DNA from: Xanthomonas sp. GPE 39 | GTDB lineage: Bacteria; Pseudomonadota; Gammaproteobacteria; Xanthomonadales; Xanthomonadaceae | Direction of reading: 5' to 3' | Assembly: GCF_000963005.1 (NCBI RefSeq) | Contig: NZ_JZHZ01000007.1 | Coordinates: 1,426,567-1,490,566, forward strand | DNA length: 64,000 bases | Shown here: positions 1 to 40,763 of the stretch, in pieces | Layout of the letters: each line of letters opens with the position of its first letter | How positions within the stretch are numbered: the first letter of the stretch is position 1 | Notes under the pieces: model-generated | The model's database searches: none | The model's input: only the letters and a program-made list of their open reading frames with translations | What the model was told of the DNA's origin: nothing | Program-made: the position numbers and the translations under genes

Positions 1-3000
1 GTATGCCCAAAGGCGTCATGATCGAGCACCGGGGTTGTGTCAACTTATATCATCACTATGCCATTTGCTATTTAAGGAGTGGCGATAAGGTATTGGTCTT
101 ATCTTCTTTTTCCTTTGATTTGACGCTTAAGAATATTATTTCCCCATTGTTTTTGGGCTGTGCTGTCGAATTGGCACCGGCGGGTGTGGTGGTCGGATCA
201 CGTATCCTGAATCTTCTTGAGTCAAGTGGCGCTGCATTGATAAATTGCGCGCCAAGTCAATTGCATGGAGTTTTAGATGATTTTGAATCGAAACTAAGAG
301 TAGCCTCGCTAGCGAAACTTCGCTATATCATACTGGGGGGAGAGAAGATAAAAATTGATCTGATTTCTGAATGGATTTCAGGTTCTGAGAAATATGTATT
401 TATAAATAGCTATGGGCCAACTGAAATCACCGACGTTGCGGTCGATGGCGTCATCAAGGGGGGGGATGTTTCAGAGTCGATGCCGATTGGCCGTCCAATC
501 GCTAACACGCGCATCTACATCTTGGATATGCACGGTGCACCGGTTCCGATTGGGGCGGTGGGCGAGTTGTATATCGGCGGCGATGGTGTGGGGCGTGGAT
601 ATTTGAATCGTGACGATTTGACCGCCGCGCGCTTCCTCGCGGATCCATTCAGTGCCGATCCGACAGCGCGCATGTATCGCAGTGGCGATTTAGGGCGCTG
701 GCGAACCGATGGCACGATTGAGTTTGTGGGTCGCAACGATCACCAAGTCAAGATTCGTGGTTTCCGTATTGAACTCGGCGAGATCGAGGCAAGATTGAGC
801 GCACATGCGGATGTGCGCGAGTGCGTGGTGGTGCCCATGGAGGATGCCACAGGCAACGACAAGCGACTGGTGGCGTATTTAGTCGCTGCCGAGGGTGTGA
901 TGTCCGAGCATCTTGGCGCAGAAAGCTTGCGTAGTTGGTTGTCGGACACGTTGCCCGATTACATGGTTCCAGCGGCCTATGTGCAGTTGGATCGCCTGCC
1001 GCTGACTCCCAACGGCAAGTTGGATCGCAACGCATTGCCCGCACCGGATGAGGCAGCCTACGCGGTGCGTGCGTATGAAGCACCTCAGGGTGCCATCGAA
1101 CAAGCCATTGCGGCGATCTGGCGCGACCTACTTGGCCTGGAGGCCATCGGGCGGCACGATAACTTCTTCGCCCTCGGCGGCCACTCGCTGCTGGTAGTGA
1201 CGCTGACCGAGCGGATGCGTCAGCAAGGGTTGCAGGCCGATTTGCGCACCCTGTTTGCCACCCCGACGCTTGTGGCACTGGCCGCAGCGAGCGGTGGCGT
1301 GTCGGTCAGCGTTCCGCCCAACGGCATTATGCGCGATACCACGCTGATCACACCGGAGATGCTGCCGTTGGCGGTCCTCACTCAGCAACAGATCGATAGT
1401 ATCGTCGCGATGACCCCTGGCGGCTCTGCCAATATCCAGGACATCTATCCGCTTGCTCCATTGCAGGAAGGCATCTTTTTCCATCATCTGTTGCAGCGCG
1501 AAGGCGATGCCTATCTGCAACCGAACCTGATCGCGTTCGACAACCGTTCGCGTCTGGACGTGTTTGTCGATGCACTGCAATGTGTGATTGATCGTCACGA
1601 TATCCTGCGCACAGCGGTGGCCTGGGAAGGACTTGCTGCACCGATGCAGGTCGTGTGGCGGCATGCGCCACTCCTGATTGAGGAGGTGTGCCTGGACGAA
1701 GCCGATGGCGATGTGGCCATGCAACTGCAATCGCGTTTCGATCCGCGGCACTGGCGTTTGGATGTACGTCATGCGCCACTGATGCGTGGTTTTACTGCAT
1801 ACGACTCGGTCAATGGTCGCTGGTTGCTGCAATTGCTCAGCCATCACATGGCCCTGGATCACACCACGCTGGAAATCCTATTGGAGGAAGTCCGGTGCCA
1901 CTTGTGCGGTGATGCCGACAGTTTGCTTCCCCCACTGCCGTTCCGCAATTTTGTGGCGCAGGCACTGCTGGGCGTGAGCCACGAGGAGCACGAAGCATAT
2001 TTCAGCACGATGCTCGGCGATGTGGATGAGCCCTGTGCACCATTCGGTCTGATCGACACACAGGGCGATGGATCCGACCTGGAAGAGGTGCGGCTCAATC
2101 TGCCGGATCGACTGTCGTTGTCGTTGCGCAACCATGCGCGCACGCTTGGGGTGAGTACGGCCAGCCTGTTCCATCTGGCCTGGGCGCAAGTGGTGGCGCG
2201 CGCCACGGGGCATGAGCGTGTTGTGTTCGGAACGGTGCTGTTTGGCCGTATGCAGGGCGGAGCGGGAGCTGATCGTGCACTGGGCATGTTCATCAATACC
2301 TTGCCATTGCGGATCGAGATTGATGGGTCCAGCGTAGTAGAGAGCGTGCGTCTGATGCAGCAGCGCCTTGCCGGGCTGTTGCGACACGAACATGCGCCGT
2401 TGTCGTTAGTGCAGCGTTGTAGTGGTGTTCCTGCGCCCGCGCCGTTGTTTACCTCACTGTTCAATTATCGGTACAGCGGCCAGGCAGAAGGCGTTGCCGA
2501 GACGATGGCGTGGGAGGGGATCGAGACATTGTCCAGTCACGAGCGGACAAATTATCCGCTTGGCGTTTCTGTGGATGATGTGGGATCTGCTTTCGTGCTG
2601 ACGGTGCAGGCGCAGCGACCTCTGGTTCCGGAACGGATATGTGCGTTCCTGCTGAAGGCGCTGGAGAGTCTTGCCAATGCGCTTGCCGATGCGCCAAAGA
2701 CGCCGGTGTGCGATCTCGACGTTCTGCCTGAGGCCGAACGGCATCAGCTGCTGACCCAGTGGAATGCAACCGCGACAGATTATCCGCGCGATAAGTGTGT
2801 GCACGAGTTGTTCGAGGAGCAAGTGGCGCGGGCACCATTGGCCATCGCGGTGGTGCAGGGTGAAGTATCGCTGACCTATGCCGAGTTGAACGCGCGTGCT
2901 AACCGTCTGGCGCATTATCTACGCGAATTGGGTGTGCGCCCGGATGATCGTGTGGCGATCTGTGTGCAGCGCAGCGTGGAAATGGTCGTGGCGGTGCTTG

Positions 3001-6000
3001 CGGTGCTGAAGGCGGGTGGTGCGTATGTGCCGCTTGACCCTGCTTATCCGCCGGATCGAGTGGCTTATATGCAGGTCGATTGCGACGCGGTCGCGGTGCT
3101 GACAGATTCGGCCAGCCGTCATTTGATCGAGAACAATGCCACTTCGGTGGTGATCGTTGATCTGCAAGCCGACGCTGCGCAGTGGCAGCATTTGCCCGAC
3201 AGCAACCCCGACCACCACGCGATTGGCCTGACTGCGCGGCATCTGGCGTATGTGATCTACACGTCCGGATCGACTGGTAAGCCGAAGGGGTCGATGAACG
3301 AGCATCGCAGCGTCGTGAATCTTGCGTTGGCGCAAATAGGTGCATTCCATGTTGAAGAAGACAGCCGCATCCTGCAGTTTTCTTCGTTGAGTTTTGATGC
3401 CTTCGCTTCTGAGTTGCTGGTGACGCTGTTTTGTGGAGCTTCGCTGTATATCGCCGACCAAGGTGATGTATTGGCAGGTGAGACGCTCACGAAACTATTG
3501 GCGGAAAATGAAATCAGTCACGTCACGTTGCCTCCTTCGGTACTGCATCAAATGCCTGAAGAGCCAAGGCTTTCGTCTCTGAAGACACTCGTCGTTGCCG
3601 GCGAAGCCCTCTCTGTGGCCATCGTGGAACGTTGGGCTGAAGGAAGACGCTTGATCAATGCATACGGTCCCACGGAGACGACGGTCTGCGCCTGTGTGCA
3701 TGAATGCGATGCGAATGTGGCGGGTGCACCACCGATTGGTCGTCCGATTGCCAATGTGCGGATCTATATTCTGGATATGCACGGCGCACCAGTTCCTGTT
3801 GGAGTGGTTGGCGAGTTGTATATCGGTGGTGATGGTGTGGGACGTGGTTATCTGAATCGCGACGATTTGACCGCCGCGCGCTTCCTCATGGATCCATTCA
3901 GTGCCGATCCGACGGCACGGATGTATCGCACTGGCGATCTGGGTCGCTGGCATACCGATGGCACGATTGAGTTTGTGGGACGCAACGATCAGCAGGTCAA
4001 GATCCGTGGTTTCCGTATTGAATTAGGCGAGATCGAGGCACGGCTGGGCACACATGCGGATGTGCGCGAGTGTGTTGTGGTGGCGCTGGAAGATGCCGCG
4101 GGCAGCGACAAGCGATTGGTGGCGTATTGGGTTGCGACGCAGGATGCGACGCACGCGCCGCTTGGCGTGGAAAGCTTGCGCAGTTGGCTGTCGGATACGT
4201 TGCCGGATTACATGGTGCCGGCGGCTTATGTGCAGTTGGATCGCCTACCGCTTACCCCGAACGGCAAGTTGGATCACAAGGCATTACCCGCGCCGGATGC
4301 TACAGCCTATGCCGCGCCTGCGTATGAAGCACCGCAGGGTGAGGTTGAACACACCATTGCCGCGATCTGGTGTGACCTGCTGGGTCTAGAGAGCATCGGG
4401 CGGCACGACAACTTCTTTGCGCTCGGTGGACATTCGTTGTTGGCGGTGCGAGTTGCCTCTCGCCTGCGTCAGGAATTGGGTGTCGAGATCGGCGTGGCGG
4501 AGTTGTTTGCCAATGCAACGCTGAAGGACCTTGCCGCGTGTGTGGCCTCTTCGTCCGCTGCGATCTTGCCGCCGATCCTGCCCTTGCAGCCGGATGCGCC
4601 GCACGTGCTGTCCTTTGCACAGCAACGGCTCTGGTTCCTGTCGCAGTTCGAGGGTATCAGTCAGGCGTATCACATCAGTGGCGGGCTAAGGTTGCGTGGT
4701 GTGTTGGATGCGCAGGCGTTGCAACGTGCGTTGGATCGCATCGTGGCCCGACATGCGTCGCTGCGCACGACCTTCGCGCTGGTCGATGGGCAGGCGTTGC
4801 AGCAAATCGCTGATGAAGAAAGCGGCTTCCATTTGCTCACCCACGATCTGTGCGGTGTACCTGATCGTGAGGAAGCGCTTGAAAAACTGCTGACCGAGGA
4901 GGCACATGCGCCATTTGCATTGGAGCAAGGCCCACTCATCCGTGGCCGGCTGATACGACTTGCCGATGACGAGTCCGTCCTCTTCGTCACGATGCACCAC
5001 ATCGTCTCGGATGGTTGGTCGATGGGAGTTTTGATCAACGAGCTGAGCGTGTTGTATCGGGCCTTTGCACATGGCGAGGCCGATCCGCTGGCGCCGTTGC
5101 CGATCCAGTACACCGATTATGCAAGCTGGCAGCGGCAATGGCTGGCGGGCGAGGTACTGGAGCAACAGGCCACGTATTGGCGTGAGGCACTGTCCGGCGC
5201 ACCGGTATTGCTGGAACTGCCAACGGATCGTCCGCGTCCAGCGCGTCAGGACCATGCCGGCGCGATGTTGGAGGTGGTCGTCGAGCCGCACCAAGCACAG
5301 GCGTTGAAGGCGCTGAGCCAGCGCCATGGTCTGACGCTATATATGACCCTCCTGGCGAGCTGGGCGTTGCTGCTATCGCGTCTATCCGGCCAGGACGATG
5401 TGGTGATCGGCAGTCCGGTGGCTAATCGTGGGAGATCGGAGACAGAAGGACTGATCGGCTTTTTCGTCAACACGCTGGCGTTGCGAGTGGAGTTGTCCGG
5501 TTCGCCGACGTTGGAGCAACTGCTGGCCTCGGTGAAGAACCGCACACTGCAAGCGCAGGCACATCAGGATATCCCGTTCGAGCAGGTGGTCGAACTGCTG
5601 CAACCGCCACGCAGTCTGGCGCATGCGCCGCTGTTCCAAGTGATGTTTGCTTGGCAGAACACGCCGCAGGGGGAGTTGGATCTTGGCGAGCTCGATGCCA
5701 GCGGATTGGGTGTTGCGCAGACGAGCGCGCAGTTCGACCTGTCGTTGTCGTTGGTCGAGAGTGAGGAGGGGATCGTCGGCAGTCTGGCCTATGCCACGGC
5801 ATTGTTCGAGCGTTCGACGCTGGAGCGGTGGATGGGCCATTGGCGGCATCTGTTGGCCGCGATGGTCGCCGAGGGTGCCGAAGATCAGGCAGTAGATCGT
5901 CTGCCGTTGCTGGACGATGCCGAGCGCTATCAGGTGCTGACGCAGTGGAATGCAACGGCAGCAGATTATCCACGCGATGCCTGTGTGCACGAGTTGTTCG

Positions 6001-9000
6001 AGGCACAGGTGGCGCTTGATCCATCAGCCATCGCGGTAGTGCAGGGCGAGGTATCGCTGACCTATGGCGAGTTGAACGCGCGTGCCAACCGTCTGGCGCA
6101 TTACCTGCGCGAGTTGGGCGTGCGCCCGGATGATCGTGTGGCGATCTGTGTGCAGCGTAGTGTGGAGATGGTGGTGGCAGTGCTTGCGGTGCTGAAGGCC
6201 GGCGGTGCCTATGTGCCGTTGGATACGGCCTATCCGCCGGAGCGCTTGTCCTACATGCTCACGGATTGCGGCGCGGTGGCGGTGCTGACGGATGACGCGA
6301 GCCGTCCTCTTGTCGAGGACAATGCCAAATCAGGTGTGATCGTCGATCTGCAAACCGAGGACGAGCGCTGGCAGCATTTGCCAGACCGCAATCCCGACCG
6401 CGATGCCAATGGTCTGACCGCAAATCACCTTGCATATGTGATCTATACGTCCGGATCGACGGGGATGCCGAAGGGCGCGATGAACGCGCATCGCGGCGTC
6501 GTCAACCGTCTGGTGTGGATGCAAGAAGCCTACACGCTGGATCGATCCGAGGTTGTTTTACAAAAAACACCGATCAGCTTCGATGTCTCGGTCTGGGAAC
6601 TGTTCTGGCCGCTGCTGAGCGGTGCGCGTGTGCAGTTGGCGCAACCAGAAGGGCATAAAGATCCGGTGTATCTAAAGGCGTTGATCCGCGATACGCAGAT
6701 CACCACCTTGCATTTCGTACCGTCGATGCTTCGGGCGTTGATCGAGCATGGCGATGATGATCCGTGTACTGGGGTCAAGCGAGTTATTTGTAGTGGCGAA
6801 GCCTTGCCGGCAGTGCTTGCAGAGCGTGCCCAGGCGGTTTTTCCATCATCTGAGATTTTCAACCTTTATGGACCGACAGAAGCGGCAGTGGATGTCACCG
6901 CCTGGCGCTATTGTGCGGGATGGGAAAATGCCGCAATTCTCCCGATTGGTCGTCCAATCGCGAACACGCAGATCTATATCCTTGATGTACAAGGTGCACC
7001 GGTTCCGATTGGAGTGGTGGGCGAGTTGTACATTGGCGGCGATGGCGTGGGGCGTGGGTATCTGAATCGCGAGGACCTGAGCGCCGAACGCTTCCTCACC
7101 GATCCATTTAGTACCGATCCGACGGCGCGGATGTATCGCACTGGTGATCTGGGGCGTTGGCGTGCCGATGGCACGATTGAGTTTGTCGGACGCAACGATC
7201 ACCAAGTCAAGATCCGTGGTTTCCGAATCGAGTTGGGCGAGATCGAGGCGCGGTTGAGCGCGCATGTGGATGTGCGCGAGTGTGTGGTGGTGGCGCTGGA
7301 AGATGCCACGGGCAGCGACAAGCGATTGGTGGCGTATTGGGTTGGTAGGCAGGATGCGACGCACACGCCTCTTGGCGCGGAAAGCTTGCGCAGTTGGCTG
7401 TCGGATACCTTGCCGGATTACATGATCCCAGCAGCCTATGTGCAGTTGGATCGCTTGCCGCTGACTCCGAACGGCAAGTTGGATCGCAAGGCATTACCCG
7501 CGCCAGATGGCTCGGCCTATGCAGCGCCTGCGTATGAAGCACCGCAGGGCGCGATTGAACAAACCATTGCCGCGATTTGGTGTGATCTGCTGGGTCTGGA
7601 GAGCATCGGGCGACACGATAACTTCTTCGCGCTCGGTGGACATTCGTTGTTGGCAGTGCGAGTTGCTTCGCGCCTGCGTCAGGAATTGGGTGTCGAGATC
7701 GGCTTGGCGGAGTTGTTCGCGCATGCAACGCTGAAGGACCTTGCCGCCTGCGTGGCATCTTCGTCCGCTGCGATCTTGCCGCCGATCCTGCCCTTGCAGC
7801 CGGATGCGCCGCGCGTGCTGTCCTTTGCACAGCAACGGCTCTGGTTCCTGTCGCAGTTCGAGGGTGTCAGTCAGGCGTATCACATCAGCGGCGGGCTAAG
7901 GTTGCGCGGGGCGCTGGATACGCAGGCGCTGCAGCGTGCGTTGGATCGCATCGTGGCTCGACATGCGTCGCTGCGCACGACCTTCGCGCTGGTCGATGGG
8001 CAGGCGTTGCAGCACATCGCTGCCGAGGAGAGCGGCTTCCATTTAATCGATCACGATCTGCGCGGTGTGCCTGATCGTGAGAAAGCGCTCGAAAAACTGC
8101 TGACCGAGGAGGCACATGCGCCATTTGTATTGGAGCAAGGCCCACTCATCCGTGGTCGGCTGATACAACTTGCCGATGACGAGTCCGTCCTCTTCGTCAC
8201 GATGCACCACATCGTCTCGGATGGTTGGTCGATGGGAGTTTTGATCAATGAGCTGAGCGTGTTGTATCGGGCCTTTGCACATGGCGAAGCCGATCCGCTA
8301 GCACCGTTGCCAATCCAGTACGCCGATTATGCAAGCTGGCAGCGGCAATGGCTGGCGGGCGAGATACTGGAGCAGCAGGCCACATATTGGCGCGAGACGC
8401 TGTCTGGTGCGCCGGTGTTGCTGGAACTGCCAACGGATCGTCCACGTCCAGCGAGACAGGACCATGCCGGTGCGATGCTGAAGGTGGTCGTCGATCCGCA
8501 GCGGACGCATGCACTCAAAGCACTGAGCCAGCGGCATGGTCTGACGCTATACATGACTCTCCTAGCGAGTTGGGCGCTACTGCTGTCACGCCTGTCCGGG
8601 CAAGACGATGTGGTGATCGGTAGTCCAGTGGCTAATCGTGGTAGATCCGAGACCGAAGGGCTGATCGGGTTTTTCATGAACATGCTGGCACTGCGGGTGG
8701 AGTTCTCCAACTCGCCGACGCTTGCGCAATTGCTGGCCTTGGTGAGGGAGCGTGCACTGCAGGCGCAGGCGCATCAGGACATCCCGTTCGAGCAGGTGGT
8801 CGAACTGATTCAACCGCCACGCAGTCTGGCGCATACGCCACTGTTTCAGGTGATGTTCGCGTGGCAGAACACACCGCAGGGCGCGCTGGATCTTGGCGCA
8901 ATCGAGGTCAGTGGATTGGGTGTTGCACAGACGAGCGCGCAGTTCGACCTGTCCTTGTCGTTGGTTGAGAGCGAGGAGGGGATCGTCGGTCGTCTGACCT

Positions 9001-11756
9001 ATGCCACCGCGCTGTTCGAGCATGCGACGGTGCAGCGATGGATGGGCCATTGGCAGCATCTGTTGGATGCGATGGTGGCCGATGGTGCTGAAGATCGGGC
9101 GGTGGACCGTCTGCCGTTGCTGGACGATGCCGAGCGTCATCAGGTGTTGATGCAGTGGAATGCAACGACGAAGGACTATCCAAGCGATGCCTGTGTACAC
9201 GAACTGTTCGAGGCACAGGTGGCACGGACACCATCCGCCATCGCGGTGGTGCAGGGTGAAGTGTCGCTGACGTATGACGAGTTGAATGCACGTGCCAACT
9301 GTCTGGCGCATTCTCTGCGGGAGTTGGGTGTATGCCCGGATGATCGCGTGGCGATCTGCATGCAGCGCAGTGTGGAGATGGTGGTCGCGGTGCTTGCGGT
9401 GCTGAAGGCCGGTGGTGCCTATGTACCACTGGACCCGGCTTATCCTGTCGAACGTCTTGCCTATATGTTGGAAGACAGCGCTCCGGTTGCGGTTCTGGCG
9501 CAGACATCGACCTTGACCCTGCTACTGACCGCATCCGTGCCGATCATCAATCTGGATGAGTCGCACTGGCAAGATCGGTCCGTGTCGAATCTGTCGATGG
9601 ATGGTCTGACCTCGGCGCATCTGGCTTACGTGATCTACACTTCCGGCTCCACGGGCCGGCCCAAGGGCGTGATGATCGAACACCGCAATACGGTGAATCT
9701 GCTGGCTTGGGCGCAGCGTTCTTTCGCAGCATCGGTCCTGGAAAAAGTCCTGTTCTCCACGTCGTTGAACTTCGACCTATCGGTCTATGAATGCTTTGTG
9801 CCTTTGGTGTGCGGTGGTGCAATTGAGGTGGTCGACAATCTGCTTGCCATGCAGGCAGATGGGCAGGGTGTCACGTTGATTAACACCACGCCTTCCGCAT
9901 TGAAGGGGTGGTTGGAATCAGGCGGACGAGGCGAGGGCGTCCATACGGTCAACGTGTGTGGTGAAGTGTTGAAGCGTCAGGTAGTGGAGGATCTGTTTGC
10001 CAAGACGCAAGTCGAACGGCTGTGCAACCTATATGGCCCGTCGGAAACCACGACGTATTCGAGTTGGGTATCGATGGAGCGCAGCGACGGTTTTGTGTCT
10101 CATATCGGCACGCCGTTGGACAATACACAGTTCTATGTGCTGGATACGCATCGTCAGCCTGTGCCGGTGGGTGTGACGGGTGAACTGTATATCGGTGGTG
10201 CCGGTGTAGCGCGTGGTTATCTGAATCACGGTGATTTGACTGCCGAACGCTTCCTCATGGATCCATTCAGTGCCGATCCGACGGCGCGGATGTATCGCAC
10301 TGGTGATCTGGGGCGCTGGCGTGCCGATGGCGCGCTTGAGTTTGTGGGGCGCAACGACCATCAGGTCAAAATCCGTGGTTTCCGCATCGAGTTGGGAGAG
10401 ATCGAGGCGCGGCTGAGCGCGCATGTGGATGTGCGCGAATGTGTGGTGGTGGCGCTGGAAGATGCCACGGGCAGCGACAAGCGATTGGTGGCGTATTGGG
10501 TTGCGACGCAGGATGCGACGCACGAGTCCCTTGGCGTGGAAAACTTGCGCAGTTGGCTCTCGGACACGTTGCCGGATTACATGGTGCCGGCGGCTTATGT
10601 GCAGTTGGATCGCCTGCCGCTGACCCCGAACGGCAAGCTGGATCGCAAGGCATTGCCCGCGCCGGATGCGACAGCTTATGCCGCGCCTGCGTATGAAGCA
10701 CCGCAGGGTGAGGTTGAACACACCATTGCCGCGATCTGGTGTGACCTGCTGGGTCTAGAGAGCATCGGGCGGCACGACAACTTCTTTGCGCTCGGTGGAC
10801 ATTCGTTGTTGGCGGTGCAGATGGTAAGTCGCCTCAATCACGCTGGGATTGAAAATAAAATTAGTGATTTGTTCTCCAATCCAATCCTGATGTCGTTGGC
10901 GGCACATCTACAAAATGAAGTGTATAGGGGGAAATTTAATGGATTGATTCCTTTTAGGGAAGAAGGTGATGAGAATCCACTTTTCATGCTATATGAGGCA
11001 TCAGGAAGTGTCCTGTATGCAAAAAATATTGAAAAATTCTTGCGCGCGGGAATGCCGATTTATGGGATCGAATGTCCTGTGGATTTTTCAATAGATACCA
11101 TACAAGGCATGGCTGCTGATGCGATCAAGAAGATGCGCAATTTGCAGAGTTCAGGTCCATATCGTCTGGCTGGCTGGTCTTTTGGTGGGCTAGTGGCTTA
11201 TGAAATGGCAAGTCAACTTGTAGATGCAAATTTGCAAGTCGAATTTTTAGGTCTTCTCGACACTAGCCATCTGTCGACTGACGCTAAAATTAAGAATTCA
11301 ATGGACTCTGCACGCAAAATAGATTGCGATTATGTAATTAGAAAGTTGTTTGAAACAGGATTTGGTCATAAAGTTGATTCGAGTGAAAAAATTAATGAAT
11401 TAAGTGATCTTGTTAAGTTGTATCAAGAGATGGGTTTTTCTTCGGATTTTATCAGGGAAGGTGAGTTGATGGACTACGCCATGCGCGTCAGTCACCACAT
11501 CAATGCGTCTATTGCATATTATGCAAAATCAATTCCGATGCGGGTGCACTTATTTGAGGCGTCCCAATTTTCCGAGGATAATCCATTCCTGGGGAGTCCA
11601 GCTCAGAGTTGGCAAGGCGTATTGCCTGAGAATTTAATTCGCGTCATCGAAGTGCCTGGCACACATCAAACTATGATGGAGTCACCTAATGTCGAAATTT
11701 TGTCACGGGTTCTTTCAGAGGCTATTAAGAACGGTTTGACTGACCCACAGAGCTGA
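1..11756 (+). CDS. Non-ribosomal peptide synthetase, 3' part (5' end outside window)
   Basis: Terminal part of a multimodular peptide synthetase, 3917 residues visible. It begins inside the A3 core of an adenylation domain, so the start lies upstream. Domain order with the carrier serines: A1(partial)-T1(S395); dual E/C (about 470-910, YPLAPLQEG, HH-L-x4-GD signature, HHMALDH core at 614); A2-T2(S1478); LCL-type C (MHHIVSDGWS, H1665); A3-T3(S2548); second LCL C (H2735); A4-T4(S3601); thioesterase (GWSFGG, S3726). All A domains keep YGP(T/S)E, RTGDL or RSGDL, and NGKLD. Pocket residues aligned by eye to GrsA: A1 DLKNIGSDV (not assigned), A2 DASTVAAVC (Tyr), A3 DVWHISLVD (Ser), A4 DLYNNCLTY (Ala-like). 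The dual E/C implies that residue 1 is D. Release is by the C-terminal TE, as hydrolysis or cyclisation. The function class is certain; the product is inference. Confidence 0.95.
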   Translation, partial: MPKGVMIEHRGCVNLYHHYAICYLRSGDKVLVLSSFSFDLTLKNIISPLFLGCAVELAPAGVVVGSRILNLLESSGAALINCAPSQLHGVLDDFESKLRVASLAKLRYIILGGEKIKIDLISEWISGSEKYVFINSYGPTEITDVAVDGVIKGGDVSESMPIGRPIANTRIYILDMHGAPVPIGAVGELYIGGDGVGRGYLNRDDLTAARFLADPFSADPTARMYRSGDLGRWRTDGTIEFVGRNDHQVKIRGFRIELGEIEARLSAHADVRECVVVPMEDATGNDKRLVAYLVAAEGVMSEHLGAESLRSWLSDTLPDYMVPAAYVQLDRLPLTPNGKLDRNALPAPDEAAYAVRAYEAPQGAIEQAIAAIWRDLLGLEAIGRHDNFFALGGHSLLVVTLTERMRQQGLQADLRTLFATPTLVALAAASGGVSVSVPPNGIMRDTTLITPEMLPLAVLTQQQIDSIVAMTPGGSANIQDIYPLAPLQEGIFFHHLLQREGDAYLQPNLIAFDNRSRLDVFVDALQCVIDRHDILRTAVAWEGLAAPMQVVWRHAPLLIEEVCLDEADGDVAMQLQSRFDPRHWRLDVRHAPLMRGFTAYDSVNGRWLLQLLSHHMALDHTTLEILLEEVRCHLCGDADSLLPPLPFRNFVAQALLGVSHEEHEAYFSTMLGDVDEPCAPFGLIDTQGDGSDLEEVRLNLPDRLSLSLRNHARTLGVSTASLFHLAWAQVVARATGHERVVFGTVLFGRMQGGAGADRALGMFINTLPLRIEIDGSSVVESVRLMQQRLAGLLRHEHAPLSLVQRCSGVPAPAPLFTSLFNYRYSGQAEGVAETMAWEGIETLSSHERTNYPLGVSVDDVGSAFVLTVQAQRPLVPERICAFLLKALESLANALADAPKTPVCDLDVLPEAERHQLLTQWNATATDYPRDKCVHELFEEQVARAPLAIAVVQGEVSLTYAELNARANRLAHYLRELGVRPDDRVAICVQRSVEMVVAVLAVLKAGGAYVPLDPAYPPDRVAYMQVDCDAVAVLTDSASRHLIENNATSVVIVDLQADAAQWQHLPDSNPDHHAIGLTARHLAYVIYTSGSTGKPKGSMNEHRSVVNLALAQIGAFHVEEDSRILQFSSLSFDAFASELLVTLFCGASLYIADQGDVLAGETLTKLLAENEISHVTLPPSVLHQMPEEPRLSSLKTLVVAGEALSVAIVERWAEGRRLINAYGPTETTVCACVHECDANVAGAPPIGRPIANVRIYILDMHGAPVPVGVVGELYIGGDGVGRGYLNRDDLTAARFLMDPFSADPTARMYRTGDLGRWHTDGTIEFVGRNDQQVKIRGFRIELGEIEARLGTHADVRECVVVALEDAAGSDKRLVAYWVATQDATHAPLGVESLRSWLSDTLPDYMVPAAYVQLDRLPLTPNGKLDHKALPAPDATAYAAPAYEAPQGEVEHTIAAIWCDLLGLESIGRHDNFFALGGHSLLAVRVASRLRQELGVEIGVAELFANATLKDLAACVASSSAAILPPILPLQPDAPHVLSFAQQRLWFLSQFEGISQAYHISGGLRLRGVLDAQALQRALDRIVARHASLRTTFALVDGQALQQIADEESGFHLLTHDLCGVPDREEALEKLLTEEAHAPFALEQGPLIRGRLIRLADDESVLFVTMHHIVSDGWSMGVLINELSVLYRAFAHGEADPLAPLPIQYTDYASWQRQWLAGEVLEQQATYWREALSGAPVLLELPTDRPRPARQDHAGAMLEVVVEPHQAQALKALSQRHGLTLYMTLLASWALLLSRLSGQDDVVIGSPVANRGRSETEGLIGFFVNTLALRVELSGSPTLEQLLASVKNRTLQAQAHQDIPFEQVVELLQPPRSLAHAPLFQVMFAWQNTPQGELDLGELDASGLGVAQTSAQFDLSLSLVESEEGIVGSLAYATALFERSTLERWMGHWRHLLAAMVAEGAEDQAVDRLPLLDDAERYQVLTQWNATAADYPRDACVHELFEAQVALDPSAIAVVQGEVSLTYGELNARANRLAHYLRELGVRPDDRVAICVQRSVEMVVAVLAVLKAGGAYVPLDTAYPPERLSYMLTDCGAVAVLTDDASRPLVEDNAKSGVIVDLQTEDERWQHLPDRNPDRDANGLTANHLAYVIYTSGSTGMPKGAMNAHRGVVNRLVWMQEAYTLDRSEVVLQKTPISFDVSVWELFWPLLSGARVQLAQPEGHKDPVYLKALIRDTQITTLHFVPSMLRALIEHGDDDPCTGVKRVICSGEALPAVLAERAQAVFPSSEIFNLYGPTEAAVDVTAWRYCAGWENAAILPIGRPIANTQIYILDVQGAPVPIGVVGELYIGGDGVGRGYLNREDLSAERFLTDPFSTDPTARMYRTGDLGRWRADGTIEFVGRNDHQVKIRGFRIELGEIEARLSAHVDVRECVVVALEDATGSDKRLVAYWVGRQDATHTPLGAESLRSWLSDTLPDYMIPAAYVQLDRLPLTPNGKLDRKALPAPDGSAYAAPAYEAPQGAIEQTIAAIWCDLLGLESIGRHDNFFALGGHSLLAVRVASRLRQELGVEIGLAELFAHATLKDLAACVASSSAAILPPILPLQPDAPRVLSFAQQRLWFLSQFEGVSQAYHISGGLRLRGALDTQALQRALDRIVARHASLRTTFALVDGQALQHIAAEESGFHLIDHDLRGVPDREKALEKLLTEEAHAPFVLEQGPLIRGRLIQLADDESVLFVTMHHIVSDGWSMGVLINELSVLYRAFAHGEADPLAPLPIQYADYASWQRQWLAGEILEQQATYWRETLSGAPVLLELPTDRPRPARQDHAGAMLKVVVDPQRTHALKALSQRHGLTLYMTLLASWALLLSRLSGQDDVVIGSPVANRGRSETEGLIGFFMNMLALRVEFSNSPTLAQLLALVRERALQAQAHQDIPFEQVVELIQPPRSLAHTPLFQVMFAWQNTPQGALDLGAIEVSGLGVAQTSAQFDLSLSLVESEEGIVGRLTYATALFEHATVQRWMGHWQHLLDAMVADGAEDRAVDRLPLLDDAERHQVLMQWNATTKDYPSDACVHELFEAQVARTPSAIAVVQGEVSLTYDELNARANCLAHSLRELGVCPDDRVAICMQRSVEMVVAVLAVLKAGGAYVPLDPAYPVERLAYMLEDSAPVAVLAQTSTLTLLLTASVPIINLDESHWQDRSVSNLSMDGLTSAHLAYVIYTSGSTGRPKGVMIEHRNTVNLLAWAQRSFAASVLEKVLFSTSLNFDLSVYECFVPLVCGGAIEVVDNLLAMQADGQGVTLINTTPSALKGWLESGGRGEGVHTVNVCGEVLKRQVVEDLFAKTQVERLCNLYGPSETTTYSSWVSMERSDGFVSHIGTPLDNTQFYVLDTHRQPVPVGVTGELYIGGAGVARGYLNHGDLTAERFLMDPFSADPTARMYRTGDLGRWRADGALEFVGRNDHQVKIRGFRIELGEIEARLSAHVDVRECVVVALEDATGSDKRLVAYWVATQDATHESLGVENLRSWLSDTLPDYMVPAAYVQLDRLPLTPNGKLDRKALPAPDATAYAAPAYEAPQGEVEHTIAAIWCDLLGLESIGRHDNFFALGGHSLLAVQMVSRLNHAGIENKISDLFSNPILMSLAAHLQNEVYRGKFNGLIPFREEGDENPLFMLYEASGSVLYAKNIEKFLRAGMPIYGIECPVDFSIDTIQGMAADAIKKMRNLQSSGPYRLAGWSFGGLVAYEMASQLVDANLQVEFLGLLDTSHLSTDAKIKNSMDSARKIDCDYVIRKLFETGFGHKVDSSEKINELSDLVKLYQEMGFSSDFIREGELMDYAMRVSHHINASIAYYAKSIPMRVHLFEASQFSEDNPFLGSPAQSWQGVLPENLIRVIEVPGTHQTMMESPNVEILSRVLSEAIKNGLTDPQS
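4309..9120 (+). repeat. Near-identical internal module repeats of the NRPS
   Basis: The T-C stretch at about 4309-5900 recurs at about 7540-9120 with only scattered substitutions. The start of the T2 block, 4321-4449, is identical by eye to 10690-10818 in T4. The C-terminal halves of all four A domains are also near-copies. These long coding repeats are direct and in frame, so they can recombine to delete or duplicate whole modules, and they are an assembly hazard for short reads. Confidence 0.85.
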
Positions 11757-25121: not shown

Positions 25122-25147
25122 TATCGGCGAGGAGTCGAAAAAATTGA
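25122..25147 (-). promoter_or_regulatory. Sigma-28 (FliA) type promoter before cheR
   Basis: On the minus strand, TCAATTTT (6 of 8 to TAAAGTTT), then 11 bases, then GCCGATA (perfect -10). It places the transcript start about 20-25 bases before the cheR ATG. Confidence 0.7.
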
Positions 25148-25453: not shown

Positions 25454-27814
25454 TTATTCAGGCATCGAGGAGCGCGCGACCTTGGCGAGTTTGCTTGGGG
25501 CGGTTGCTCCAGGCTTCTTTTTGGACTGCATTTTTGTGTGTGTCCTTGCCACGTGTTGTGGCGAGAACGAGTGATGCATGTCTGGCGTCGATCGTGCCAC
25601 TCGGAAGATCGAGACCGATTCGATCAATTGGCCTGCCTGTTCTTCCATCGAGTGCGCGGCAGCCTTGGCTTCTTCCACCAGCGCCGCGTTCTGCTGGGTG
25701 GCTTCGTCCATCTGGCTGACAGTCTGGCTGACCTGATCGATCCCGGCAGACTGTTCCTGCGAGGCAGAGGCGATCTCGCTCATGATGTCGGTGACCCGCT
25801 GCACCGAGGCCACGATTTCGTTCATAGTCTGACCGGCTTGGCGCACCAGCGCCGAACCATTCGAGACTTGGCTCACCGAGGCATCGATCAAGCCTTTGAT
25901 TTCCTTGGCGGCGCTGGCCGAGCGCTGCGCCAGGGTGCGCACTTCGCTAGCGACGACCGCGAAGCCGCGGCCCTGTTCGCCGGCCCGGGCCGCTTCCACT
26001 GCGGCGTTGAGCGCCAGGATATTGGTCTGGAAGGCGATGCTGTCGATGACGCCGATGATGTCGGCGATCTTCTTCGAGGACGTCTCGATGCCGCTCATCG
26101 TGCTCACGACCTGTCCGACCACCTCGCCGCCCTGCGACGCGACCGAGGCAGCGCCGACCGCCAACTGGTTGGCCTGGCGTGCATGCTCGGCATTCTGCTT
26201 GACGGTAGAGGTCAGCTCTTCCATGGAGGCGGCGGTTTCTTCCAGGTCCGACGCCTGTTGCTCGGTGCGGCGCGACAGGTCGTTGTTGCCAGTTGCGATT
26301 TCCCCGGCGGCGCCGTTGATCGCGTTCGCCACATGTTGGATGCCGCTGATGATGCTCGATAACTGTTCGGCGGTGGCGTTGGCGTCGTCGCGCATCGTGG
26401 CGAACACCCCGTGGAACTCGCCTTGCATGCGGATGGTCAGATCGCCCTGCGATAGTGCAGTCAGCAGCTTGGATACTTCGCCGATGCTATCGCCGTTGGC
26501 CTGCAGTAGACCGTTGAGTTGCTCGGCCAACATCAAGAAGAAGCCCTGCTTGCCGTCGATGGTGATACGCCCGGACAGGTCGCCGGCGCCGGCGGCCTGC
26601 ACGATCGTCGCTACTTCCCGTTCGACTTGCGCCTCAAGCGTGCGATCACGCGATTCGCACACATAGCCGATATGGTTGCCGTGTCCATCGCGGATGGAGG
26701 TGATGATCTGGGCAATGCGTGCATCGCCATAGGCCATCTCGCGTTCGACCACGCCTTTATGTTCGATCTCCGCCGCGGTTCTGGGATCGACCTGGTTGCC
26801 ATACTCGATCACCGAGACCGAGGAGCCAACCAGTGGCAGTTTGGAGTCGAACGCCGGCGCGACCGAGCGGATCTCGTCAGCGTACTTGTCGGTGATGCTC
26901 TGCATCGACGGGTTGGCGTAGACGATGCGGTAGTCCAGGTCGGCGATGAACACGCCAGTAGAGGAGTTGTCCAGAGCGGTGCGGATGCGCAGGTTCTCGG
27001 CGGATGCCGCGGCATCTTGTTCGATGCGTGCGCGCAGGTCATGCTGCATACGCTGGAGTGCTTGCATCAGTTCGCCGACTTCGTCCTGACTGCTGGCGTC
27101 GATATGTCCGTCGAGCTTGCCGCCAGCGACTTCGTTGGCCACCTTGACCGCGCCACGCACGCTGTTGGCCAGTAGCTTTCCGAACAGGAACGCCAGGGAG
27201 ACCGCGCTGCCGATGCCGATCAGCAGGCACACCAGCAGCATCGCCGACGCCTTGCCATAGGTGCTGCCGGCGTTGTCTGCCGCGACCTTGGACTGGCGGT
27301 CGTTCTCGGCGATCAACGCGATCAGGTCATCGGTCACCTTATTGTCCAGAAGGCTGGTTTCGCTGGTGAAGGTGTCGATTGCGTCATCGCGTAGGTCGAG
27401 CTGCAACATCTCGTCCACGGAACCATAGGACGCGATTGCCTTTTTCCAGTCCTTCACCAGGCGCTCGTAGGCTACTTTTTCCTGGGCTGTGCTGATCTTT
27501 TTCGGATACTGGGCGATGATCTCGTCCATCTGCTTTTTCAGAGCGATCTTACGCGTCTGCGATTCTTTCTTTACCGCATCGCTGCTGCGGATCAGGCTTT
27601 GATACGCGGCGCTACGGTAATCGCCGAGGATTGCGCGCATTTCACCGCCGATACGCACGCTGGGCACTACCGAACTGGAAAGGTTCTTGGTCTGATGATT
27701 GAGCGAGTTCAGTCCACTGTAGGCTGTCAGTCCCTGAATCAGCATCAGGGCCAGTACGATGCCGAATGCCAGCATCAATTTTGGCATCAGCTTGAGATTT
27801 TTTATCCACTGCAT
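25454..27814 (-). CDS. Methyl-accepting chemotaxis protein with PAS domain
   Basis: 786-residue chemoreceptor. TM1 is at about 10-32 and TM2 at about 188-212, with a helical 4HB-like periplasmic sensor between them, then a HAMP (about 213-265). A PAS domain (about 272-390, [20 protein letters not shown]) follows, with a further HAMP-like linker (GDLSGRITI). The long coiled-coil signalling hairpin has the tip [20 protein letters not shown]. The C-terminus ends ARSSMPE, with no CheR-docking pentapeptide. The PAS next to the membrane suggests a second, cytoplasmic or redox/ligand input. It lies about 100 bases downstream of the secreted OB-fold gene, which has a sigma-28 promoter. A weak 9-bp hairpin at 27871-27901 lies between, so co-transcription is possible but unproven. 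Confidence 0.95.
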
Positions 27815-27870: not shown

Positions 27871-27901
27871 CCGTGCTGGATGGCCAAGGGCCCCAGCACG
27901 G
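27871..27901 (-). terminator. Possible weak hairpin between the OB-fold gene and the receptor gene
   Basis: Perfect 9-bp arms CCGTGCTGG / CCAGCACGG with a 13-base loop, 14 bases past the stop of the secreted protein. There is no T-run on the minus strand, so it is an attenuator or mRNA stabiliser at best. Confidence 0.35.
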
Positions 27902-27914
27902 TGATGCACAGTGG

Positions 27915-28295
27915 TTATTTGATGGTTGCCAACTTCAAGCTAGAGGGAGCGCTGACCTGAATTTCCGCGCGCGAGCTGTCGCGTTCGATCTTGCCGATCA
28001 CGCACACATCCTTGCCTTCCAAGGCTTCCGGCGGAAAGCTGAACTTGCTGCGATCAGCGCCAGCGATCCGTGCGGAAAAGGTGTGGCGTGGAAACATGCC
28101 GCCCATGTACAAAAAAGTGGGTTCGCCCTCGGAATTCTGCGCATATTTTGCCTTCTCGACCTTGCCGCAGACCATGCCGTCCTTGCCGACGAACTTGGTC
28201 GCCATTTCCGGCGGAATCATCTGCTGAGATTGGGCAAAGGCGCTGGGGCTGGCGGCGAGTAGAAGGACCAAAAGCAGCGGCAGGTTCGATTTCAT
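27915..28295 (-). CDS. Small secreted OB-fold-like protein of unknown function
   Basis: 126 residues. There is a clear signal peptide ([21 protein letters not shown], cleavage about residue 21). The mature part contains [20 protein letters not shown], then a central hydrophobic strand (TFSARI), then [20 protein letters not shown]. This alternation of short strands, with 'CGKV...GxPTF' and 'CVxGKI' motifs, resembles the tRNA-anti-like or nuclease-associated OB fold seen in small periplasmic proteins. No catalytic residues are evident. Two cysteines (in VCGKV and DVCVIG) could form a disulfide in the periplasm. An AAGGAA lies 8 bases before the ATG. A sigma-28 promoter about 60 bases upstream makes it part of the motility regulon (inference). 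Function not known. Confidence 0.85.
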
Positions 28296-28356
28296 AGAAC
28301 GATTCCTTGAGGGCGATGGATGAAGTAATGGTGATATGAGTCAGCCACTCTTCAGC

Positions 28357-28382
28357 TATCGGCAACTTTTCTATGAACTTGA
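28357..28382 (-). promoter_or_regulatory. Sigma-28 (FliA) type promoter before the secreted OB-fold gene
   Basis: On the minus strand, TCAAGTTC (6 of 8 to TAAAGTTT), 11 bases, GCCGATA. The predicted start gives a leader of about 55 bases to the ATG at 28295. Confidence 0.7.
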
Positions 28383-35743: not shown

Positions 35744-35771
35744 TATCGGCGGCTCCGGCGAAATCTTGAGT
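35744..35771 (-). promoter_or_regulatory. Sigma-28 (FliA) type promoter upstream of the pentapeptide receptor
   Basis: On the minus strand, TCAAGATT (6 of 8), 11 bases, GCCGATA (perfect). It is far (about 265 bases) from the ATG. Confidence 0.55.
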
Positions 35772-38772: not shown

Positions 38773-39984
38773 TCAATGCAACAGTTGTTCAGCGTCGAGC
38801 AAGATCATCGGGTGCTGCGTCAGTCGCGCGACGCCGCGGAAAAGATGGTTGGAAATACGGCAGATACGGGCATTGTCCGGTGGTTCGATCTCATGATCGG
38901 TCAAGCTGGCGACGTCCTCGACAGCCGATACGCGCAGGCCCAGAGTTTCGCCACTTTCTTCCAGCACCACGACCCGCGTCTGCATGTCCATTTCGATTGG
39001 TGCCGATCCCAGGTGCAGTCCCAGATCCAGGACCGGCACCACCTGGCCGCGCAGGTTCATGATGCCTAGCATCGATGGTGCCGTACCACGCAGTGCCAGT
39101 AGCGGCACCGGTAGTACGACTTCTTGCACTTTCAGTAGCTCCAGTGCGTAGGCCTGTTCGCCGCAGCGTAGACGTAGCCAACGCGTGCTACGTTCGGTCG
39201 CGCGCTCGGGGACGGTGGCCGAGCCCTGTGGCAGGGACGGTGCCATGAACGCTTGTAGGTTGGGCGTCAGCCGCGTTGCGCCGGCTTTTGCGCGTTCGGC
39301 TTCGGCGCGACGCTCCGGTGGCACCGCCATCGCTGGGCGCTTGACGGCGCGTGTGCTGGCGGCATCGTCCTCGGCGGCAAGATCGCGCGCAACAGTGGAA
39401 CGTTGTCGTTCCATCGCTGCCACTGCTTCTAGATCGGCCTGACGGTCGGCGTTGGGTGCCTGCTGCGACATGATGCCGGCCAGTGCGGGGTCTGAATCGG
39501 CTTCGGCCAGGACGGCGGCGGCGATTTGCTCCGGGGTTGGGCCGGTCGGCGCAGGCGTCGGTGCCTGCTGCGACATGATGCCGGCCAGTGCGGGGTCTGA
39601 ATCGGCTTCGGCCAGGACGGCGGCAGCGATTTGCTCTGGGGTTGGACCTGTCGGTGCTGGCGTTAGCGCCTGCTGCGACATGATGCCGGCCAGTGCGGGG
39701 TCTGAATCGGCTTCGGCCAGGACGGCGGCGGCGATTTGCTCCGGGGTTGGGCCGGTCGGTGCTGGCGTCGGCGCCTGCTGCGACATGATGCCGGCCAATG
39801 CGGGGTCTGAATCGGCTTCGGCCAGGACTGCGGCAGCGATTTGTTCGGGGGTCGGACCGGCTGGCATGGGCGTTGTCGTATTAGCAGTAGCCGCTGAGAG
39901 CGGTGATGTGACGTTCTGCGCTTCGCTGGTCGTGTCGTGCAACAGACCTTCCAGATAGTCGTCGATGATGTTTGGAGTACTCAT
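38773..39984 (-). CDS. parP: ParP-like array-positioning protein with C-terminal CheW domain and tandem repeats
   Basis: 403 residues. The N-terminal 20 residues (MSTPNIIDDYLEGLL) look like a short amphipathic interaction helix. Residues about 40-175 are four tandem 35-residue repeats (PTGPTPEQIAAAVLAEADSD then PALAGIMSQQ and APTPA). A charged Ala/Arg-rich linker follows, then a CheW-like domain (about 265-395, RWLRLRCGEQAYALELLKVQ, IMNLRGQVVPVLDL). In Vibrio and Pseudomonas, ParP links CheA arrays to the polar ParA-type ATPase ParC through its N-terminus. The gene order motC-motD-parA-this gene matches. Its ATG overlaps the parC stop (ATGA). A 14-residue N-terminal extension is open but rejected. 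Confidence 0.85.
   Translation of the reverse strand: MSTPNIIDDYLEGLLHDTTSEAQNVTSPLSAATANTTTPMPAGPTPEQIAAAVLAEADSDPALAGIMSQQAPTPAPTGPTPEQIAAAVLAEADSDPALAGIMSQQALTPAPTGPTPEQIAAAVLAEADSDPALAGIMSQQAPTPAPTGPTPEQIAAAVLAEADSDPALAGIMSQQAPNADRQADLEAVAAMERQRSTVARDLAAEDDAASTRAVKRPAMAVPPERRAEAERAKAGATRLTPNLQAFMAPSLPQGSATVPERATERSTRWLRLRCGEQAYALELLKVQEVVLPVPLLALRGTAPSMLGIMNLRGQVVPVLDLGLHLGSAPIEMDMQTRVVVLEESGETLGLRVSAVEDVASLTDHEIEPPDNARICRISNHLFRGVARLTQHPMILLDAEQLLH
39461..39880. repeat. Four tandem 105-bp coding repeats in parP
   Basis: The sequence TGCTGCGACATGATGCCGGC recurs at 39461, 39566, 39671 and 39776, exactly 105 bases apart (35 codons). Copies differ at only a few bases, so the array is young or homogenised. 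Confidence 0.95.
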
Positions 39985-40763
39985 GCGGCTTGTTCCATCA
40001 GCGTCGCGTCGTTGAGCAGCAGCCATTCCAGCGCGCGCCGATAAGCGGCCAGGCCGCGACCGGGATAGTCGCCGCCACCGCTCGCGATGGTCAGTGCCTT
40101 GACGTTACAGATCTTGGTGTCTACCGGAATCGCGTCTTCCCACACCCGTTCGCCATAGCTGTCTTGCATCTGTCGCAGGGTTTCGTTGCCGGCGCGGGTG
40201 CGCTTGTCGAACAGCGTCGGCAGGATCGATGCGGGTAGGGGGCGGCGACGCGAACGCTCGACCATGTCCACGGTGCGGACCATGCTGGCCAAGCCGTGCA
40301 GTGCGAGCGGCTCGGCTTGCGTGGGAATGATCACGCGATCGGCAGCGGCCAGTGCGTTGATCATCAATAGGCCCAGGGTCGGAGGGCAGTCGAGCAAAAT
40401 GTAATCGTGCTGTCCGGCATGTCGGGCCATGGCCTGCTGTAACGCCAGACCTAATCCCGGCTGGTTGGCGCTGCGTCGCTCCAGCGTGGCCAGCGCGGTC
40501 TGCCCGCAGACGAAGCTCAGGCGTTCGATCGCGGTGGTGTGGGCAAGCGTGGAGAGTTCACTGGATGGGGTGGAAAACAGATCCACCACGCCAGCCGGTT
40601 GCGGTTCCTGGGGCACATCGAACGCTCTGGTCAGCGATGCGTGCGGATCGAGATCGAGCATCAACACGCGATGGCCGAGCATGGACAGGCCACGGCCCAG
40701 TGCCAGCGTGCTTGTCGTTTTACCCACGCCACCTTTTTGGTTGGCAATCGCCCAGATACGCAT
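39981..40763 (-). CDS. parC: ParA/Soj-type ATPase ParC of the flagellar-chemotaxis cluster
   Basis: 260 residues of the ParA/MinD fold: deviant Walker A KGGVGKTTSTLAL with the signature lysine, Walker A' LMLDLDPHASLT and Walker B ILLDCPPTLG. In related gamma-proteobacteria it places chemotaxis arrays at the flagellated pole and helps their segregation. Chromosome or plasmid partition is unlikely because there is no ParB gene and the neighbours are motC-motD upstream (4-base gap) and parP downstream (overlap). Confidence 0.92.
   Translation of the reverse strand: MRIWAIANQKGGVGKTTSTLALGRGLSMLGHRVLMLDLDPHASLTRAFDVPQEPQPAGVVDLFSTPSSELSTLAHTTAIERLSFVCGQTALATLERRSANQPGLGLALQQAMARHAGQHDYILLDCPPTLGLLMINALAAADRVIIPTQAEPLALHGLASMVRTVDMVERSRRRPLPASILPTLFDKRTRAGNETLRQMQDSYGERVWEDAIPVDTKICNVKALTIASGGGDYPGRGLAAYRRALEWLLLNDATLMEQAA

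Follow-up and report, generated by a model that had tools for sequence, protein, structure and literature searches.

An exported OB-fold protein encoded ahead of a four-helix-bundle chemoreceptor in Xanthomonas sp. GPE 39 and its candidate role as a periplasmic receptor partner

The OB-fold protein gene, its promoter and its transcription unit

The subject of this report is a small gene on the reverse strand of a 64,000-nucleotide stretch of Xanthomonas sp. GPE 39 DNA (contig NZ_JZHZ01000007.1; the whole stretch is called the window below), which encodes a predicted exported OB-fold protein and lies between a FliA (sigma-28) promoter box and the gene of a chemoreceptor with a periplasmic four-helix-bundle (4HB) domain (Table 1). 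The open reading frame of 126 residues given in the initial annotation is confirmed, and the export proposed there is indicated by a signal read by eye. By protein identity, the source genome is very near Xanthomonas albilineans; it holds one OB gene and 12 receptor matches. The protein is 98% identical to its homologue at L003 (L numbers denote loci and G numbers genomes) and 93% identical to those at L001, L002, L004, and L008; across the 25 other rows of the alignment, identity to the window's protein ranges from 62 to 98%, with many residues invariant. Both cysteines are conserved in 25 of the 25 aligned family members, including the divergent tandem copies.

The predicted model, with a predicted local distance difference test (pLDDT) score of 80 and block means of 75–92 across residues 21–120, is a five-stranded barrel of about 105 residues in the order b1-b2-b3-a-b4-b5, with strands at residues 38–50, 59–63, 72–76, 95–105, and 108–113 and helices at 78–83 and 88–91, which places the protein in the OB-fold superfamily at the level of a model. 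The top rows of a structural comparison are OB-containing proteins, engineered OBody entries among them, and the earlier description as "OB-fold-like" is thereby upheld as a prediction. The two invariant cysteines are located in model strands 1 and 4, which adjoin each other in an OB barrel, and probably staple the barrel through a disulfide.

No known Pfam or NCBIfam family matches the protein above its cut-off. The BOF / YgiW-YdeI stress OB family is rejected, as NF033674 (stress_OB_fold) reaches E 0.17 and 12.1 bits versus a cut-off of 35, and TIGR00156 gives a best E of 0.051 in one of 25 family members, below the NCBIfam cut-off. A solute-binding protein (SBP) of the SBP_bac type is rejected by zero SBP matches in Pfam and by a model with a single OB barrel instead of two lobes; a relative of a solved structure is rejected by sequence, the best E being 0.18 (Caf1 matches). 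SBP, BOF, and other families are not among the rows of the structural comparison, an absence that excludes nothing.

The textbook FliA box (TCAAG-N14-GCCGATA) reported earlier is present as an exact match upstream of the OB gene and is evolutionarily conserved. Within the window, 16 sites fit the box pattern at up to two mismatches where 4.36 would be expected, and 0 of 100 shuffles reach 16. A genome-wide scan gives six perfect matches to T[AC]AAG-N14-GCCGATA; at up to one mismatch the count is 47, compared with 34 for the reversed pattern, and the motif is therefore weakly specific genome-wide and proves little by itself. Among 48 of the 62 related loci (spacers of 13–15, 250 bases upstream plus 60 within the gene), 12 of 12 box bases are matched in 25, 11 in 15, 10 in seven, and nine in one (L058); thus, at least 10 bases are kept in 47 of 48 loci while the spacer sequence varies. 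In a reduced set of 30 of the 62 loci, 29 reach at least 10 bases, compared with 80 of 1085 stretches of 250 bp drawn at random from these loci (other FliA boxes included) and with 2 of 600 shuffles. The start codons of partial matches were extrapolated in these tests. In 15 further loci, some from the same species as loci of the 48-locus test, the box precedes the receptor-proximal OB copy in nine (L115, L117, L118, L119–L122, L124, and L125). This cross-species conservation is convincing evidence that the box is under selection, and a conserved box at promoter distance points to membership in the FliA regulon, with FliA-dependent transcription predicted. A second exact FliA box occurs in the window at 35744–35769 (-), upstream of another receptor gene (35472–33220).

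The hairpin that follows cheW may set this gene apart from the promoter that comes after it; the region holds six terminator-like hairpins against 4.0 expected in shuffles. The genes after the receptor gene are taken to be cheR, cheD, and cheB from recognising their sequences, and cheR has a FliA-like box of its own. Because of the hairpin after cheW, the FliA box of the OB gene, and the separate cheR box, the arrangement of boxes and gaps makes the OB gene look like one FliA unit with the receptor gene. Between the two genes, 46 of the 63 distinct stretches contain a perfect stem of at least 8 bp, compared with 99 of 3150 mononucleotide shuffles, the sole control. The hairpin is conserved in form while its sequences differ, with a T-run in one of the 46 and none in the other 45. 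In operons of periplasmic binding proteins, hairpins protect the upstream message, and by this analogy the OB protein may be made in a higher dose than the receptor.

Table 1. Features of the chemotaxis region around the OB gene, in window coordinates
Feature	Position	Strand	Basis or remark
MCP (methyl-accepting chemotaxis protein)	32714-30195	-	Same-strand chemotaxis cluster
YcgR-type PilZ protein	30085-29078	-	Same-strand chemotaxis cluster
CheW	28969-28475	-	Upstream neighbour of the OB gene
Terminator-like hairpin after cheW, 9 pairs, T-rich tail, TTCATTTGAA	28420..28440	-	Consensus match only
FliA (sigma-28) box, TCAAG-N14-GCCGATA, TCAAGTTCATAGAAAAGTTGCCGATA	28357..28382	-	Exact consensus match; conserved across related loci
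Ribosome-binding site, AAGGA	28304..28308	-	Read off the sequence
OB-fold protein gene, 126 aa, Cys pair C43/C98 (full-length numbering)	27915..28295	-	ATG start; conserved homologues and model
Signal peptide, residues 1-21	28233..28295	-	Sec-type; AFA|QS cleavage after residue 21, as read by eye
GC-rich hairpin without T-run, gap between OB and receptor genes	27871..27901	-	
Partner chemoreceptor, 786 aa, 4HB_MCP_1-HAMP-PAS-HAMP_2-MCPsignal	25454..27814	-	Domain search
Receptor 4HB region in the periplasm, approximately residues 31-190	27245..27724 (approximate)	-	Found together with the OB gene
FliA-like box with one mismatch, ahead of cheR	25122..25147	-	Consensus match only

Distribution and linkage to one receptor type

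A profile search found the OB gene in 43 of 149 Lysobacteraceae genomes (50 copies). FliA was found in 73 of the 149 (E 1e-40), including all 43 carriers, and none of the 76 genomes lacking FliA has the OB gene (hypergeometric 5e-18, uncorrected for relatedness). Within a single genus, G207 has FliA and the OB gene whereas G175 has neither; the window's genus yields no loss case because all 20 sampled genomes keep both. Since 30 of the 73 FliA-positive genomes do without the OB gene, it is not a general part of flagella or motility. An ordinary flagellar part is ruled out by this count, and the earlier suggestion of a new motility component fails in the general sense: the gene tracks one receptor type.

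In 43 of 43 carrier genomes, the OB gene lies directly ahead of a receptor with this specific 4HB domain, at a matched OB-to-4HB distance of 21–119 nt. The linkage first noticed in the window therefore holds elsewhere, with one stand-alone copy in addition in a single genome, and the gene is genetically tied to one ligand-binding domain (LBD). The downstream neighbour matches a receptor wherever the stretch extends past the OB gene (L001–L079 except L040), and the upstream neighbour varies among CheW, a PAS-GGDEF-EAL protein, PilZ, and others. At L110, L111, L115, and L117, none of the window's che genes is matched within 12 kb of the OB–receptor pair (L118 is too short for this check).

From these loci, 192 receptor N-termini were extracted, 72 of them OB-adjacent and 120 not; 34 of 226 receptor frames, none OB-adjacent, were dropped because a start or transmembrane (TM) segment was not found or the frame was too short. 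A profile of the N-terminal 200 residues was trained on 39 partners (the window, L001–L037, and L061), mostly from Xanthomonas with a few from Stenotrophomonas and metagenome-assembled genomes. It scored the 33 held-out partners, a few of them nearly the same as one another (L043/L121, L050/L120, and L052/L124 score equally), at 70.8–301.9 bits and the 120 non-partners at no more than 58.3 bits (median 0.85); L040, L047, L053, L054, L056, and L058, whose receptors are cut by a contig end, were left out of the partner scoring. A 25-sequence 4HB profile reached at least 202 bits in 43 of the 149 genomes, exactly the OB-gene set, and at most 118.8 bits in the others, where the 202-bit cut was seen and not preset and at least 11 of the 25 profile rows, the window included, come from the searched genomes; the held-out N-terminal test is the cleaner of the two.

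The receptor of the window starts 100 bp beyond the OB gene and its PAS domain is matched, in agreement with the initial annotation (about 100 bases, PAS-containing), but the stress laid there on the PAS domain was misplaced. PAS is matched in the partner receptors of the window, L050, L111, and L115 and weakly in L010, whereas the partners at L048 (Pseudoxanthomonas) and at L113 and L116 (both in the genus g90) retain 4HB with no PAS match, and a PAS-coupled reading is rejected on these three. From the genomics, it is strongly supported that the OB protein is a partner of the receptor's 4HB domain.

Tandem OB copies occur at L110, L115, L117, and L118. Tandem OB genes stand before a single receptor at L115, L117, and L118, and also at L110, L113, and L116; at L115, L117, and L118, the FliA box is found solely before the receptor-proximal copy. 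One receptor might thus be served by two binding proteins, or the copies might form a heterodimer.

Elsewhere in the window, a 3917-aa non-ribosomal peptide synthetase is encoded at 3–11756 (+), with four adenylation, three condensation, and four carrier matches and one thioesterase match. A protein of 417 residues that ends in a CheW domain (38773–40026, -) adjoins genes that appear ParA-like and MotB-like by eye.

Proposed role and alternative explanations

On the genomic evidence, the OB protein, which carries an export signal, is a genuine component that is conserved and specific to one receptor type. We propose that it is a dedicated periplasmic partner of the receptor, a reading to which we give a probability of roughly one half. 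FliA would transcribe the OB gene and the receptor gene jointly as a two-gene unit, and the OB protein, presumably exported, would work with the 4HB domain of the receptor whose gene follows immediately. Its OB cleft would most likely bind a ligand, small or oligomeric, and the protein would dock on the 4HB domain, so that the receptor might sense the ligand indirectly with an effect on chemotaxis. Solute-binding proteins dock on Tar- and Trg-type receptors, and 4HB receptors are classic clients of periplasmic binding proteins. Conservation is also much stronger in the OB protein than in the 4HB domain (mean p-distances of 0.297 and 0.571, respectively); for these two reasons, a ligand-presenting adaptor is our best guess. 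One account describes many SBPs that activate receptors via binding to their LBDs (PMC9600550). Tentatively, the protein may represent an undescribed class of co-receptor, a non-ABC, OB-fold, obligate ligand- or redox-sensing subunit of the 4HB receptors of Lysobacteraceae (Xanthomonas, Stenotrophomonas, Pseudoxanthomonas, Luteimonas, and others), in which 4HB may be unable to sense alone.

Several observations weigh against the dedicated-partner proposal. Every count given here ignores the relatedness of the genomes. In six of the 15 further loci (L110, L111, L113, L114, L123, and L116), divergent lineages among them, the receptor-proximal copy has no clear match to the box ahead of it, the sole 10/12 match at L116 falling within the upstream OB gene. 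G172, which carries an OB–receptor pair (L111), also has an extra stand-alone exported OB paralogue (L112, 6225–6599, +) whose neighbouring frames hold no receptor. Over 20 loci, the partial r is 0.83 for OB–4HB, 0.11 for OB and the receptor signalling part, and 0.45 for OB–CheW; over the 17 loci outside the g90 lineage, however, OB–4HB falls to 0.67 compared with 0.77 for the cytoplasmic middle part. Co-divergence is thus not specific to the 4HB domain and does not discriminate between the mechanisms. Lastly, the neighbouring frames of OB relatives outside Lysobacteraceae (L080, L166, L167, L168, and L170) hold no receptor by eye; for L166, L167, L168, and L170, this was a check of frames of at least 110 aa without a receptor search, covering part of the stretch for the first three.

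These outside relatives are exported or membrane-anchored OB domains that stand alone (L166, L167, L168, and L170) or end nuclease-like proteins (L080 and L167). L080 583–1806 (+) and L167 3979–5400 (+) combine an N-terminal nuclease-like region, a by-eye TM stretch, and a C-terminal OB domain; the nuclease-like label is taken from plasmid relatives annotated DUF559, the plasmid matches to the OB domain being annotated DUF559 or nucleotide-binding. Both cysteines are absent from L166 and L170, and the two small exported proteins of G705 keep both with no receptor seen nearby. Searches at class and phylum level found OB relatives in 5 of 369 (4 own-family), 9 of 398 (7 own-family), and 2 of 337 genomes, the first search also giving a weak match in G332 (L169); 11–13 first-look candidates were scored per genome, so distant members were possibly overlooked. 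Because the outside relatives lack a neighbouring receptor, the pairing appears, within these sampling limits, to be an invention of Lysobacteraceae.

Among the alternatives, the OB protein might serve this receptor in a structural or regulatory way, as an assembly factor, stabiliser, or inhibitor of 4HB that binds no diffusible ligand. The linkage would be equally expected, the OB protein does diverge far less than 4HB, and OB scaffolds are able to bind proteins, as the OBody entries illustrate. We nevertheless consider this unlikely, as the separate gene and the hairpin suggest unequal dosage and the 120 non-partner receptors from the same loci manage with no such neighbour. A redox or thiol sensor, whose cysteine pair would open and close with the periplasmic redox state and relay this to the receptor, also fits the genomic data and the two invariant cysteines in adjacent strands, but it is improbable: a structural disulfide accounts equally for the invariance, L166 and L170 lack the pair, and the G705 proteins keep it with no receptor in sight.

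More improbable still is a protein of the envelope-stress OB group (YgiW/YdeI/SipA, or BOF) whose place in a motility transcript is accidental. The likeness lies in a small exported OB protein, and PMC6370654 describes V. cholerae SipA, E. coli YgiW, and Salmonella YdeI as periplasmic proteins that interact with outer-membrane proteins, SipA also binding antimicrobial peptides. Yet the stress_OB_fold score lies far below its cut-off, and a chance neighbour would not track one 4HB receptor type in all 43 carriers. That the FliA promoter serves the receptor and the OB gene is a passenger in between, kept via vertical descent, is very improbable despite most loci lying in a single conserved cluster of related genera, given the many invariant residues, the survival of the pair where no che gene is matched in the vicinity and where the receptor has a different cytoplasmic half, and the absence of the 4HB type above 118.8 bits from all 106 OB-less genomes.

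Comparison with known systems

The searched literature, which does not extend to subscription papers, yielded no report of a chemoreceptor partner with an OB fold. The ligands of many chemoreceptors are unknown, and ligand screens with isolated periplasmic domains would fail if a partner protein were needed; a dedicated OB-fold partner would be a direct, testable reason for such failure and a candidate sensing protein for this receptor type. The gene is retained even in the X. albilineans lineage, the genome and MCP set of which are described as reduced in PMC3826837.

In Asn/Asp-tRNA synthetases and RPA-like proteins, the OB domains bind nucleic acid in the cytoplasm or nucleus, and their sequence identity to the OB protein is 8–18% among the matches listed. 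The BOF / YgiW-YdeI-SipA proteins (NF033674 and TIGR00156) are likewise small and exported with an OB fold, but they give no significant sequence match, whereas the protein described here has an invariant Cys pair, a FliA-type promoter, and a tie to a chemoreceptor. The extracytoplasmic OB domains of other Proteobacteria (L080, L166, L167, L168, and L170) are the same domain by profile or tblastn match; in contrast, they have no chemoreceptor in the neighbouring frames seen, and some have no Cys pair.

The closest functional likeness is SBP-assisted chemoreception, of which MBP with Tar is an example. Both systems would combine a separate periplasmic protein, a four-helix-bundle receptor, and indirect sensing, the last being a proposal for the OB protein. 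Compared with the two-lobed SBPs, the partner described here is predicted to be an OB barrel of about 105 residues; the seven named neighbours in the window are chemotaxis or PilZ genes with no transporter genes; and the OB gene is coupled to the receptor gene, while docking of the OB protein is putative. If binding is shown, partner-assisted chemoreception gains a new variant, and, if the proposal is true, periplasmic adaptor sensing reaches beyond the binding proteins of transporters.
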